Under the pieces are notes generated by a model, which worked only from the letters and a program-made list of their open reading frames with translations, was not told the DNA's origin and did no database searches. A DNA stretch of 64,000 bases from Chryseolinea soli (GTDB lineage Bacteria > Bacteroidota > Bacteroidia > Cytophagales > Cyclobacteriaceae): assembly GCF_003589925.1 (NCBI RefSeq), contig NZ_CP032382.1:3596001-3660000 (forward strand). Reading direction: 5' to 3'. Position numbers and translations under genes: made by a program. Positions 38,577-57,915 of the stretch are shown here, piece after piece; the first letter of the stretch is position 1; the number at the start of each line of letters is the position of its first letter.

Positions 38577-39476
38577 ATGAATGAACTATTGGAGGGCGTC
38601 CTGAAGGGGCTGATGGGCCGCTATAAAGAAAGGGTACCGGATGTGTCGGCTGTGATGGCGGCCATGAAGAAGGAGGGTGTGATTCAAAATGACAGCGAAA
38701 TCGAGAACGATCACATCGCGTTCCGTAGTTTGGGAGTGCCTCATTTGGGGATTCAGTCGCTGGAGAAGGTATTTCTTCACCTCGGCTACACCAAGCGCGA
38801 CTATTATTTTTTTCCGGAGAAGAAACTGAATGCCTATTGGTATGCACCCCCGGCTGAAAATTTTCCCCGCATTTTTATCAGCGAATTGCGCGTCGGTGAT
38901 TTGTCGCCAGCTTCCCAGGAAGTGATTCGCAAATATACCGGCACGTTGCATAGCGATCCGGTTGACAGCCTCGACCTGAACGATGTGGCAAAAGTCGATG
39001 CGTTTTTGCACAGCCACTTCTGGAGCATCCCAACCCTGCAGGATTATCTGGCGTTGCAGGAAGAGAGCGAGTATGCCGCTTGGGTGATGTACAACAAATA
39101 CTACCTCAACCACTTCACCATCAGCGTTCATTCCCTGAAGCCGGGCTATAATACCATCCAGGAATTTAATACATTCCTGGAACGAAACGGTTTTGTGCTC
39201 AACGATTCGGGTGGAAAATATAAACAGAGCCCCGACGGTTTGCTGCTGCAAAGTTCAACCGTGGCCAAGATGATCGAAGCGGAGTTTGCCAACGGCGAGA
39301 AACACACCATCTCCGGATCGTATGTTGAATTCGCCGAACGGCGCGTGCTTCCACAGTTTCGTAATCTTCCCCCTCAGGAGATTGGTCGCCAACACCGGCG
39401 TGAGGGCTTTGAGGCCCAAAATGCAAACCGGATTTTTGAGAGCACCTACTCCTCTCAGACGACCAAGATCAGCTAA
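38577..39476 (+). CDS. DUF1338 protein, 2-oxoadipate dioxygenase/decarboxylase (HglS-like)
   Basis: A protein of 299 residues from the ATG at 38577 (MNELLEGVLKGLMGRY); the frame extends eight codons upstream, but that ATG-less part overlaps the promoter. DUF1338 enzymes are Fe(II)-dependent and convert 2-oxoadipate to 2-hydroxyglutarate in the D-lysine catabolism of Pseudomonas. Candidate metal ligands are His46 (NDHIAFRSLG), His179 (LNHFTISVHS) and Glu251 (GSYVEFAERR), in the order expected for HglS. This is the shorter family form (HglS is larger). It is 30 bases upstream of an ALDH7 gene, which forms the precursor 2-aminoadipate, so both serve the end of lysine or hydroxylysine breakdown. 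Confidence 0.86.
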   Translation: MNELLEGVLKGLMGRYKERVPDVSAVMAAMKKEGVIQNDSEIENDHIAFRSLGVPHLGIQSLEKVFLHLGYTKRDYYFFPEKKLNAYWYAPPAENFPRIFISELRVGDLSPASQEVIRKYTGTLHSDPVDSLDLNDVAKVDAFLHSHFWSIPTLQDYLALQEESEYAAWVMYNKYYLNHFTISVHSLKPGYNTIQEFNTFLERNGFVLNDSGGKYKQSPDGLLLQSSTVAKMIEAEFANGEKHTISGSYVEFAERRVLPQFRNLPPQEIGRQHRREGFEAQNANRIFESTYSSQTTKIS

Positions 39477-39506
39477 GTTTTTTCTTTCATTTTAATTCAA
39501 CACAAC

Positions 39507-55400: not shown

Positions 55401-55597
55401 CATCAGGACTGGTACCCAACGTGTCGAAGCATAGCTATGATGTGGTGCAGCGCGACTTTGTGACTTGGAACATCGATCTGTTGCAAATGGGCGTGGGCGG
55501 TGATAACTCGTGGGGCGCCCCCGTACATGATGCTTATAAAATAAAACCCGCTGAATATCGCTATTCATTTGTGTTAAAAGGCGTTTCTGTCGAATGA
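52442..55597 (+). CDS. GH2 beta-galactosidase (LacZ type)
   Basis: A protein of 1051 residues with a signal peptide ([16 protein letters not shown]), so it acts in the periplasm. The order is a sugar-binding jelly roll ([18 protein letters not shown]), Ig-like domain, TIM barrel, second Ig-like domain and a C-terminal Bgal_small_N domain ([28 protein letters not shown]). The acid/base is Glu482 (WSLGNESG) and the nucleophile Glu545 ([12 protein letters not shown]), both intact. It cleaves terminal beta-galactosides. It starts 15 bases after the kinase-lyase gene and overlaps the GH31 start by four bases, so the three are one operon. Galactose is beta-linked to hydroxylysine in collagen. Confidence 0.92.
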
Positions 55598-57915
55598 TTT
55601 ATCGCAGTACAATGAATCGGAAAAAATTAACCACAATGCTGGACAAGTTGGTGCTCGCCTTACTATTTGTCTGTGTTCACGCAGCAACCGGACTTGGCCA
55701 AACACCGTCGCCTGTAAATAATTTCTATTCTACCAAGGTGGTGTTTCAGGATAGTTTGGAGGTCTCCCTGTATTCGCCCACGATGTTCCGCGTACGCATT
55801 TCGCATTTGCAAGGAGAGAAATTCCCTAAGCAGTATGACATTCCCTTTGCGATTGGAAAAACGACACCCTGGAAAGAAGTGGCGTATACGAAATCGGAAG
55901 ATAGAAATACAGTTAGCATCAAAACCGATAAGATCATTTTGCGGATTGCCAAGCGAGGCTTATCATGGACAGTGTGGTCCGGTGATGGGAAAAAGAAAAT
56001 CTATCCGTCCGACGGCCCCACGTACGGTATGTTCAAAGACGGCTACACTTTTTTCGACAATGCCAGCGCCCTGAATGAGGCGAACAAAAACAGTCGCTTT
56101 GCGCATTGGTTCTATAGTCAAATCACACAGCGCTACACCGATGTTTATTTGGCGGAGGATGTGTTGGAAGATCTGTATTTTATCTTCGGCCCGTCCTACG
56201 AAGCGATTTACGCTCAGTATAACACGCTCGTCGGCCCCGAACCCCTGCTGCCCCGCAAAGGCTATGGCTTCTTCCAAACCCAACACCTTGCCTGCGACGG
56301 AACGCAACAACAGTTGCTGGACGTAGCGCGACAATTTCGCGACAAAAACATTCCCATCGACAATTTGATAATAGACTTTGAATGGGGCGATGGCTGCGAC
56401 GGCCAGAAGGAAACCGTGTGGGGCAAATCGCTGAACTGGTCCCCGAACTACACTACGCCCTTTACGCCGGAAGAAATGATCCGGAAGTTGAAAGACCTTC
56501 ACATCGACGTGATGCTGATTCATCACAGTGCGCCGGATTTCAAAAACCGGAAACATCAGGGGTGGACTGAAACGGTATACGATGAAGCGGTATGGAACAA
56601 CGCCTACAAACAAAAGCTGGACATGGGCATCGCAGGCACCTGGCAGGATACGCGCATCAACGACATCACCGACAGCTACATCTGGAACCTCACCGAGCAA
56701 TATCAACCCGGCAAACGGGTGATGTTTCTGGGATGTCGCAAAACGGTGGCCCTGAACCCCTGGGACTTCCGCTACAGTGTCGCGCCCACTGAAAACATGA
56801 TCGGCGCCCGGCGCTATCCATTTCATTGGACGGAAGACGCCTCGTCGTCATGGAACGAATTGAGATTTCAACTGAAGGCCACCAACAACACCTTTGGTCC
56901 ACTGAGTGGCTACACTTACTTGAGTTCGGATGGTGTGGCCGCAAGTTGGCGCGCCCAGGCACGGTGGAATCAGTTCACCGCACTCAGCGCCGTAGCACGC
57001 TCGCACAATCCAAAACCCTGGTCGGGCGACATCGACGTGCTCGACTTCACAAACAAGATCCGGATCACCGGAAGGGATACGATCACGGGGGTGAAGAAAA
57101 TAGAAGAAACACAAACCCAAACGGCTGAGACAAGCATCCGGAAATATCTTCAACTGCGCTACCGGTTGCTGCCGTACATTTATTCTTACGCGCACATAAC
57201 GTACCAGACCGGCATGCCCATCGTACGTCCCATGCTGCTGGCCTTCCCGGACGACTACATTTGTTCGTCGGATGCGTGGCCCTATCAATACATGCTTGGA
57301 AATGAATTGCTGGTGGCACCGGTTTACGGCGATTTCAAGACCATGGAAATTTACCTTCCACAAGGCCACGACTGGATCGACTACAACACCCGGGAGATTT
57401 TCCGGAACGGTGGAATCATCACCTACAATGTCGAAGATATCAACACGCTGCCCCTGTTCATCCGAAGCGGCGCCATCATCCCCACGCGGCAGGCCACCGA
57501 ATGGATCGATCCTTCCGTGCCCGACCAACTCGCATTCGAGATCTTCCCGGTCGATACGCTTTCTTCGTTTATGCTCTATGAAGACGACGGCGTGTCGACA
57601 AAATATCAACAGGGCGAAGTCGGCAAGACCATGATCACGTGCGAACGGAACAAGACAGACAAGAGGATTACCGTGAAGATAGGAGCCCTGCAAGGCCACT
57701 ACACCGGTAGTAGTGCGGAGAGAAGCTATTCCATAACATTGCAAGGAACGCCAAATCAATCGAAAGTTTTTTATCAGGGAAGAGCCATACCCGAAGGAGG
57801 CAAAAAGGCCACGGCGAAAACACCGGTCACGTGGACCCGCAATGCACCCGGAGACGCCCTGATCATTCAGGTGGTGAAGCGATCCGAAAAAGAATTTGAA
57901 GTAGTGATAAAATGA
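55594..57915 (+). CDS. GH31 alpha-glycosidase
   Basis: A protein of 773 residues; the ATG at 55594 overlaps the lacZ-type stop (ATGA), although ATG codons at 55612 and 55636 would leave the signal peptide ([18 protein letters not shown]) closer to the start. GH31 order is clear: N-terminal beta-sandwich, (beta/alpha)8 barrel, C-terminal sheets. The likely nucleophile is Asp352 ([10 protein letters not shown]) and the acid/base Asp415 ([16 protein letters not shown]). Family members are alpha-glucosidases, alpha-xylosidases, alpha-galactosidases and alpha-N-acetylgalactosaminidases; the subfamily needs a tree. An alpha-glucosidase for Glc-alpha-1,2-Gal fits the neighbours. Confidence 0.9.

Follow-up and report, generated by a model that had tools for sequence, protein, structure and literature searches.

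Few animal proteins are as abundant as collagen. In animals, a kinase and a phospho-lyase yield 2-aminoadipate semialdehyde from 5-hydroxylysine, and the route from HYKK through PHYKPL to ALDH7A1 was reportedly described by Veiga-da-Cunha et al. in 2012. A gene cluster of the bacterium Chryseolinea soli, lying in the 64,000-nucleotide stretch of DNA analysed here (the window), seems to follow the same sequence of reactions, by a kinase, an ammonio-phospholyase, and an ALDH7, but with one three-domain protein that also contains an M23 domain, with glycan uptake genes alongside, and with HglS instead of 2-oxoadipate dehydrogenase. This cluster is probably a utilization system for the Glc-alpha-1,2-Gal-beta-O-5-hydroxylysine unit of collagen.

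The accessible portion of PMC8154272 names the phospho-lyases and cites their source. As far as the consulted passages of PMC7286885 go, the lysine pathway of Pseudomonas putida has in common with the cluster the HglS step and, by family, an ALDH7-type step, whereas entry in C. soli would be via a phospho-lyase and not via lysine enzymes. Bacterial use of hydroxylysine has been described in Pseudomonas fluorescens, for which an excerpt of PMC12930750 gives monooxygenase and racemase routes, mentions no kinase/phospho-lyase or glycan part, and calls information on hydroxylysine catabolism scarce. As in the polysaccharide utilization loci (PULs) of Bacteroidota, a SusC/SusD pair, exo-glycosidase families, and a local box are present, whereas the C. 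soli set also includes genes that degrade the aglycone, here an amino acid. The reaction proposed for its GH31 is performed by the collagen glucosidase PGGHG, which belongs to another family, GH65. No bacterial system for the collagen O-glycan-hydroxylysine unit was found in the open-access literature, subscription literature lying outside the search, and no paper in the open-access set searched combined 'hydroxylysine' with 'polysaccharide utilization loc...'.

Gene groups and boxes of the cluster

The cluster comprises three gene groups, HglS-ALDH7, APC permease-regulator, and SusC-SusD-fusion-GH2-GH31. An open reading frame check of the window found the frames intact and the positions unchanged, and Pfam and NCBIfam confirmed the families, so the gene set listed in the earlier note stands. 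On the plus strand, HglS (DUF1338, a predicted 2-oxoadipate dioxygenase-decarboxylase; 38577..39476; PF07063, 228.9 bits) has the hydroxyglutarate synthase 6w1k as its best PDB match and is followed by ALDH7 (39507..41054), a predicted 2-aminoadipate-6-semialdehyde / piperideine-6-carboxylate dehydrogenase that scores 822.9 bits against a cut-off of 730 with NF050084 (L-piperidine-6-carboxylate dehydrogenase) and has antiquitin-type chains among its best PDB matches. The minus strand holds the APC amino-acid permease (42886..44250; PF13520, 146.8 bits), starting at TTG 44250 or ATG 44211, and behind it a TPR protein (41075..42826), which family scans and features seen by eye (an N terminus resembling a signal peptide, a membrane segment, and a C-terminal part similar to LuxR) make a candidate regulator; a homologue (31%) adjoins SusC in another locus with a fusion (L097). 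The third group, again on the plus strand, consists of the TonB-dependent outer membrane transporter SusC (44658..47759; TIGR04056, 858 bits, cut-off 368), the SusD lipoprotein (47778..49304; PF07980, PF14322), the fusion of an APH-type kinase, an M23 metal hydrolase, and a class III pyridoxal phosphate (PLP) phospho-lyase-like domain (49397..52426; NF004799, 1209.3 bits, cut-off 1128), a LacZ-type GH2 beta-galactosidase (52442..55597; NF052611, 1076 bits, cut-off 999), and a GH31 alpha-glycosidase (55594..57915; PF01055/PF21365). The last three genes are consecutive, with a 15 bp gap and then an overlap, and since SusC and SusD are neighbours and glycosidase genes accompany them, the locus qualifies as a PUL.

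The exact sequence GTAGAGNNNNTGTAGAGG (GTAGAG-N5-GTAGAGG) occurs three times in the single-contig, 8.24 Mb genome, once ahead of each gene group: as box 1, GTAGAGGCCATGTAGAGG, at 38494..38511 on the plus strand, 65 bp upstream of the HglS start; as box 2, GTAGAGTTGTTGTAGAGG, at 44270..44287 on the minus strand, 58 bp upstream of the permease ATG 44211; and as box 3, GTAGAGTTCATGTAGAGG, at 44544..44561 on the plus strand, 96 bp upstream of SusC. Two species of the same genus, C. serpens (G163) and C. lacunae (G136), keep the whole gene set and have three exact boxes each at the corresponding places, while whole-genome searches of three congeners without the cluster (G182, G015, and G093) found no exact box. 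The exact box, three copies per genome and confined to the cluster, is therefore found in three of three cluster-bearing and none of three cluster-less Chryseolinea, which bears out the earlier claim of three promoters with one common box. A related 17-base pattern with at most two mismatches matches the window four times (three of them exact) against 0.40 expected, and none of 100 shuffles had four matches. Genome-wide, the box pattern and its reversed control gave five and four matches, respectively, at up to one mismatch, and 40 and 79 at up to two; since the mismatched pattern is no commoner than the control, only the exact copies are informative. Behind box 1, TATATTTG at 38543-38550 fits what we take to be the Bacteroidota -7 consensus. 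A search for an arbitrary palindrome gave no match.

Among the cluster-less congeners, G182 carries a fusion without the remaining cluster genes; a BNR/sialidase-like gene lies directly upstream of it in the same direction (L052, 13065-14237) and was not counted. Downstream of the C. soli cluster, at 60163-61866 of the window, an ECF sigma factor and a FecR-like gene were recognised by eye.

The fusion protein and its neighbours in other genomes

The fusion contains, in this order, APH (~49478-50131), Peptidase_M23 (~50696-50992), and class III PLP Aminotran_3 (~51194-52396) domains, and its start is probably ATG 49397, as in its relatives, giving 1009 aa. By score and domain order, it is a member of PRK06148 / NF004799, a model that is named 'hypothetical protein' only and to which the cluster context suggests a function. 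The fusion shares 92% identity with its C. serpens counterpart and 88% with that of C. lacunae. In 64 full-length sequences (that of the window and those of 63 of the 64 loci described below, L115 being without a fusion frame), the kinase residues D201, N206, and D223, presumably the APH catalytic D...N and the DFG-like D, are invariant, as are the PLP lysine K847 and the M23 residues D439, H490, H526, and H528, while H435 is present in 63; we take the M23 residues to be the HxxxD, H, and HxH metal/catalytic ones. All three active sites look intact. The protein model has a mean pLDDT (predicted local distance difference test) of 84.5, with stretches below 50 inside the lyase domain, and the APH domain has only a weak amicoumacin kinase match in the PDB. 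Hydropathy shows no signal-like N terminus, and the M23 domain with its near-invariant catalytic residues thus sits between kinase and lyase in a protein without a signal peptide. In a wider search that scored 8,000 candidates, 7,999 reached E <= 1e-100, and all 120 among the matches listed have the three domains. The earlier description of a hydroxylysine-kinase/phospho-lyase-like fusion was right about the APH and phospho-lyase domains, missed the M23 domain, and leaves the specificity for hydroxylysine undecided.

Full-length fusions, defined by E <= 1e-200, are present in 31 of 390 genomes of the family and in 37 of 395 of the phylum. Sixty-four loci were read, leaving out G323 and G489 (two of the 36 other genomes of the phylum that carry such a fusion), the partial G774, and ten of 35 remaining matches; a Tahibacter fusion without the M23 part (L049) was placed in neither the full-length nor the M23-less set. 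GH2 stands directly 3' of the fusion in five genera (g1, g17, g36, g111, and g116, Chryseolinea included), and the pair occurs in g17 at four loci with three different flanks. Seven of the 62 loci outside the cluster have GH2 nearby, against 0.17 expected from the GH2 density in 12 genomes, four of the seven being related g17 loci. In a tree of 15 GH2 sequences, the nine linked to fusions fall into one clade of ten (100/100), whose tenth member is unlinked but comes from a fusion-bearing genome (G185), and the other five, from G326 and G387, lie outside. A GH63/MGH1-like gene lies beside the fusion in g35 (three of four loci), g36 (one of four), and g116, and GH97 does in g65. The GH63-like protein of L097 has YgjK, an enzyme that prefers Glc-alpha-Gal disaccharides, as its nearest PDB entry, and that of L142 scores 427 bits with a YgjK-type model, below the cut-off of 625. 

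Galactose genes accompany some of these loci. The second copy in G638 stands in a row of LacI (by eye), SusC, SusD, GH63, fusion, GH2, a mutarotase-like gene, a symporter, GalK, and GalT, with the galactokinase above its cut-off (TIGR00131, 325 against 227 bits) and GalT as well (NF008724, 512 against 448), and a row of GalK, a DHDPS family gene, and the fusion recurs in six of seven g192 loci (L103, L104, L105, L107, L123, and L124, the family models having been scored in one of the six), the seventh, L106, ending at a contig end. Other neighbours point to amino-acid breakdown: in g110, a second lineage with this linkage, HglS homologues (63% and 60% identical) lie 1.7 and 7.0 kb from fusions, and homologues of 4-hydroxyproline epimerase and of an FAD amino-acid dehydrogenase lie within 4.2 kb of the fusion at eight loci of genera g94, g167, g216, g228, and g243 (two of the eight epimerases were scored, and both exceeded the cut-off of 376, with 582 and 581 bits). 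The mere presence of 4-hydroxyproline epimerase was rejected as support, since it occurs in 94 of 196 family genomes and lies at 7.33 Mb in C. soli, and only linkage is counted.

Some further neighbours were noted. In g100, an M29 aminopeptidase gene precedes a shorter fusion of 955 aa (L110:11032-12120 and L116:11195-12310; Pfam-checked in L116), and in L110 these are followed by a LacI-like regulator, recognised by eye, and a SusC-like gene. In four g35 loci (L053, L091, L144, and L145), a proline-racemase family gene lies upstream of the fusion, that of L091 being nearest to trans-3-hydroxyproline dehydratase but below its cut-off. The downstream proteins of L037 (680 aa) and L039 (789 aa) matched no Pfam family and were not counted.

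Taken together, the sought neighbours stand at 30 of the 64 full-length loci and at none of 25 loci with M23-less fusions (14 of 28 genera against none of 17), a contrast that is partly circular, because some neighbour queries were chosen with the full-length loci already known, several loci (L043, L097, L103, L117, L142, L145, and others) are themselves the source of a query, and two loci are the same cluster. When only the GH2, GH31, and HglS of the window serve as queries and C. serpens and C. lacunae are excluded, nine of 62 full-length and none of 25 M23-less loci have such a neighbour (Fisher p 0.055). Contig ends shorten the flanks of 22 of the 64 full-length and nine of the 25 M23-less loci; one of the latter, L088, ends at a contig end, and the absence of M23 there is uncertain.

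Outside the phylum, the pSymB plasmid of Sinorhizobium meliloti 1021 holds a fusion (44% identical) in the order amino-acid ABC pair, SDR, fusion, sugar ABC, GH63-like gene, LacI, and GH42 beta-galactosidase, and the annotated record of strain ml66 has the same order. The plasmid sample consisted of nine loci read out of 87 records, two of them without a gene table. Lrp, the fusion, and an amino-acid ABC binding protein occur together in three of the six other plasmid loci (Phyllobacterium T1293, Pararhizobium, and Shinella zoogloeoides). In two phyla, then, the fusion can adjoin alpha-glucosidase-type and beta-galactosidase genes of different families. Such partners are readily explained by an alpha-glucosyl-beta-galactosyl amino alcohol as substrate, and this is the form that Glc-alpha-1,2-Gal-beta-hydroxylysine of collagen has, according to the accessible parts of PMC8626586 and PMC8537180.

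Proposed pathway and competing explanations

The gene content, the exact boxes, the conservation in three species, and the recurring partner genes are observed. The reactions of the proposed pathway are predicted from protein families, and its substrate, its regulator, read-through past the hairpin described below, the aminotransferase, and the role of M23 are inferred. SusC and SusD would import the glyco-amino acid or a short glycopeptide into the periplasm, where, outside the inner membrane, GH31 would remove glucose and GH2 galactose, and the APC permease would carry hydroxylysine into the cytoplasm. By hydropathy, GH2 and GH31 have signal-like N termini, whereas the fusion, ALDH7, and HglS do not, and the sugars would therefore be removed outside and hydroxylysine imported for the cytoplasmic steps. 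There, the APH domain of the fusion would phosphorylate hydroxylysine and the PLP domain eliminate phosphate and ammonia to give 2-aminoadipate-6-semialdehyde, which ALDH7 would convert into 2-aminoadipate. An aminotransferase encoded elsewhere could then form 2-oxoadipate, and HglS could turn it into 2-hydroxyglutarate. As the earlier note had observed, no 2-aminoadipate aminotransferase is encoded among the genes read in the cluster (no genome-wide search was made for one). The three gene groups might be switched together by a single regulator that acts at the box, for which the TPR protein encoded behind the permease is a candidate.

The lower pathway fits this proposal in several respects. 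Aligned with 6w1k, HglS retains DHxAFR, the second His, and SYxEFAER, and so has the substrate arginine and the metal triad, which the accessible part of PMC7286885 gives as Arg74 and HHE in the P. putida enzyme (the numbering of chain and paper was matched by eye). ALDH7 has a second genomic copy at 530606-532108; it is present in 176 of 196 family genomes, and in two copies in only five, which include all three cluster-bearing genomes, so some source must supply the extra enzyme of the cluster with 2-aminoadipate semialdehyde. In other genomes, HglS and ALDH7 belong to lysine breakdown: saccharopine dehydrogenase is grouped with both of them in G037 and with HglS in G046; the G037 row (L072, 1612-5509), with an Lrp-like gene behind it (by eye), forms a compact lysine-breakdown cluster. 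Pfam found no saccharopine dehydrogenase in the C. soli cluster, and the best match in the genome to the G037/G046 proteins, 30% over 241 of 371 residues, lies far away. With only a distant counterpart, and with the exact box before both HglS and SusC, ordinary lysine catabolism seems less likely as the whole story; other lysine routes, such as that by lysine aminotransferase, were outside the search.

Several points weigh against a collagen-unit system. The enzyme activities are predicted, and a distant saccharopine-dehydrogenase-like protein does exist in C. soli. A terminator-like hairpin on the plus strand, between SusD and the fusion (49339..49358; with its T run, 49339-49370), has stem, loop, and six T identical in C. 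soli, C. serpens, and C. lacunae and a folding z of -4.47 against shuffles, although the terminator scan as a whole, with 26 sites against 24.2 in shuffles, says little by itself. It lies between SusC-SusD and fusion-GH2-GH31, and it counts against one regulon and against the earlier picture of SusC to GH31 as one transcription unit. No convincing promoter was seen upstream of the fusion, and the genome search found no exact box directly before it; box 3 would thus reach fusion-GH2-GH31 perhaps by read-through only. The hairpin may be an attenuator that lowers, but does not abolish, expression of the enzymes relative to SusC-SusD, or it may end the SusC-SusD unit, the enzymes forming a separate one.

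As for the enzymes themselves, animals use GH65 for the glucose step, and Pfam found no GH65 domain in the ten proteins scanned. In GH31, D352 (WQD) and D415 (WT.D) are invariant in 31 aligned sequences, but the protein reaches no NCBIfam cut-off and has no specificity-defining relative; a specificity drawn from structure was rejected, as the best match of the model (mean pLDDT 79.8) is the dextranase FjDex31A, which is 20% identical and gives no information about alpha-1,2-Gal. The families of the earlier GH2 and GH31 assignment are thus confirmed, GH2 being of LacZ type, while the Glc-alpha-1,2-Gal specificity of GH31 remains putative. The solved structure closest to the lyase domain, human ethanolamine-phosphate phospho-lyase (6tor; 475 bits, 51% identity over 403 structure-aligned columns), acts on phosphoethanolamine, the Arthrobacter A1RDF1 phospholyase (5g4i) comes second by both sequence and fold, and no chain named PHYKPL is among the 60 PDB matches listed for the fusion; the nearest structure would thus leave ethanolamine and hydroxylysine undecided.

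Distribution adds to these points. No sought neighbour stands at 34 of the 64 full-length loci, and two of the 30 positive ones are the cluster itself in C. serpens and C. lacunae. HglS and the fusion co-occur in three of 395 genomes against 1.2 expected (one-sided Fisher p 0.11), which was rejected as support, although the genes are linked in all three. None of the six non-Sinorhizobium plasmid loci has an annotated glycosidase (their gene tables are incomplete), and none was recognised by eye at the S. fredii locus. Besides being a mark of collagen, hydroxyproline occurs in proteins of plant walls, and hydroxyproline genes therefore do not single out collagen. The synteny proposed as a check in the earlier note thus exists for part of the fusions, through glycosidases, galactose genes, HglS, or hydroxyproline genes; and where that note would have counted the parting of amino-acid genes from glycosidases in relatives as refutation, the two Chryseolinea keep the set, while other genera keep fusion and glycosidase without HglS or ALDH7 beside them.

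The fusion could instead be a kinase/phospho-lyase for ethanolamine or another amino alcohol, in a PUL for an ethanolamine-bearing or unrelated glycan, with HglS-ALDH7 serving lysine and the box common by accident. This is unlikely; it would agree with the two closest solved lyases, with HglS beside saccharopine dehydrogenase in other genomes, and with a hairpin that loosens the tie of the fusion to the box, but a second lineage also has HglS close to the fusion, acetaldehyde formation from ethanolamine requires neither HglS nor ALDH7, and Lrp and amino-acid ABC genes near plasmid fusions and hydroxyproline genes elsewhere have no counterpart at the 25 M23-less fusions. A lysine/pipecolate catabolism set captured beside an ordinary galactoside PUL, with the fusion acting on some other hydroxylated diamine or amino acid, would account for ALDH7 and HglS as lower lysine-pathway enzymes; glycosidases are presumably common in such large genomes, and a separate unit may end at the hairpin. 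It is nevertheless very improbable, given that the fusion-GH2 pair recurs in five genera, with different flanks in g17, and that the S. meliloti cluster holds GH42 instead of GH2. There is similarly little probability that the system uses free hydroxylysine from deglycosylated collagen peptides while the glycosidases act elsewhere: glycosidases are missing from over half of the fusion loci examined and three plasmid loci have amino-acid uptake only, but fusion, GH2, and GH31 are consecutive in C. soli. The use of glycosylated hydroxylysine, as first read from this DNA, gains from the unique boxes, the partner genes, and the S. meliloti analogue, while its substrate, the GH31 linkage, and the preference for hydroxylysine over ethanolamine are predicted, and the hairpin may free the enzymes from control by the box.

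Implications for the NF004799 family

M23 enzymes favour glycine bonds, and in collagen the residue after hydroxylysine is glycine. A broader idea, tentative and rather doubtful, is that PRK06148-type three-domain proteins are the bacterial hydroxylysine enzyme and the hub of convergent collagen-unit systems in Bacteroidota and Alphaproteobacteria. In the cytoplasm, their invariant M23 domain would then serve as a third active site and release hydroxylysine from collagen peptides in which glycine flanks it. The new aspect of the C. soli cluster is a PUL-like set that would also degrade an amino-acid aglycone, built around an enzyme family without an assigned function. If the proposal is true, the cluster suggests a function for the unnamed NF004799 family, and C. 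soli would have a PUL that consumes both the glycan and its aglycone.

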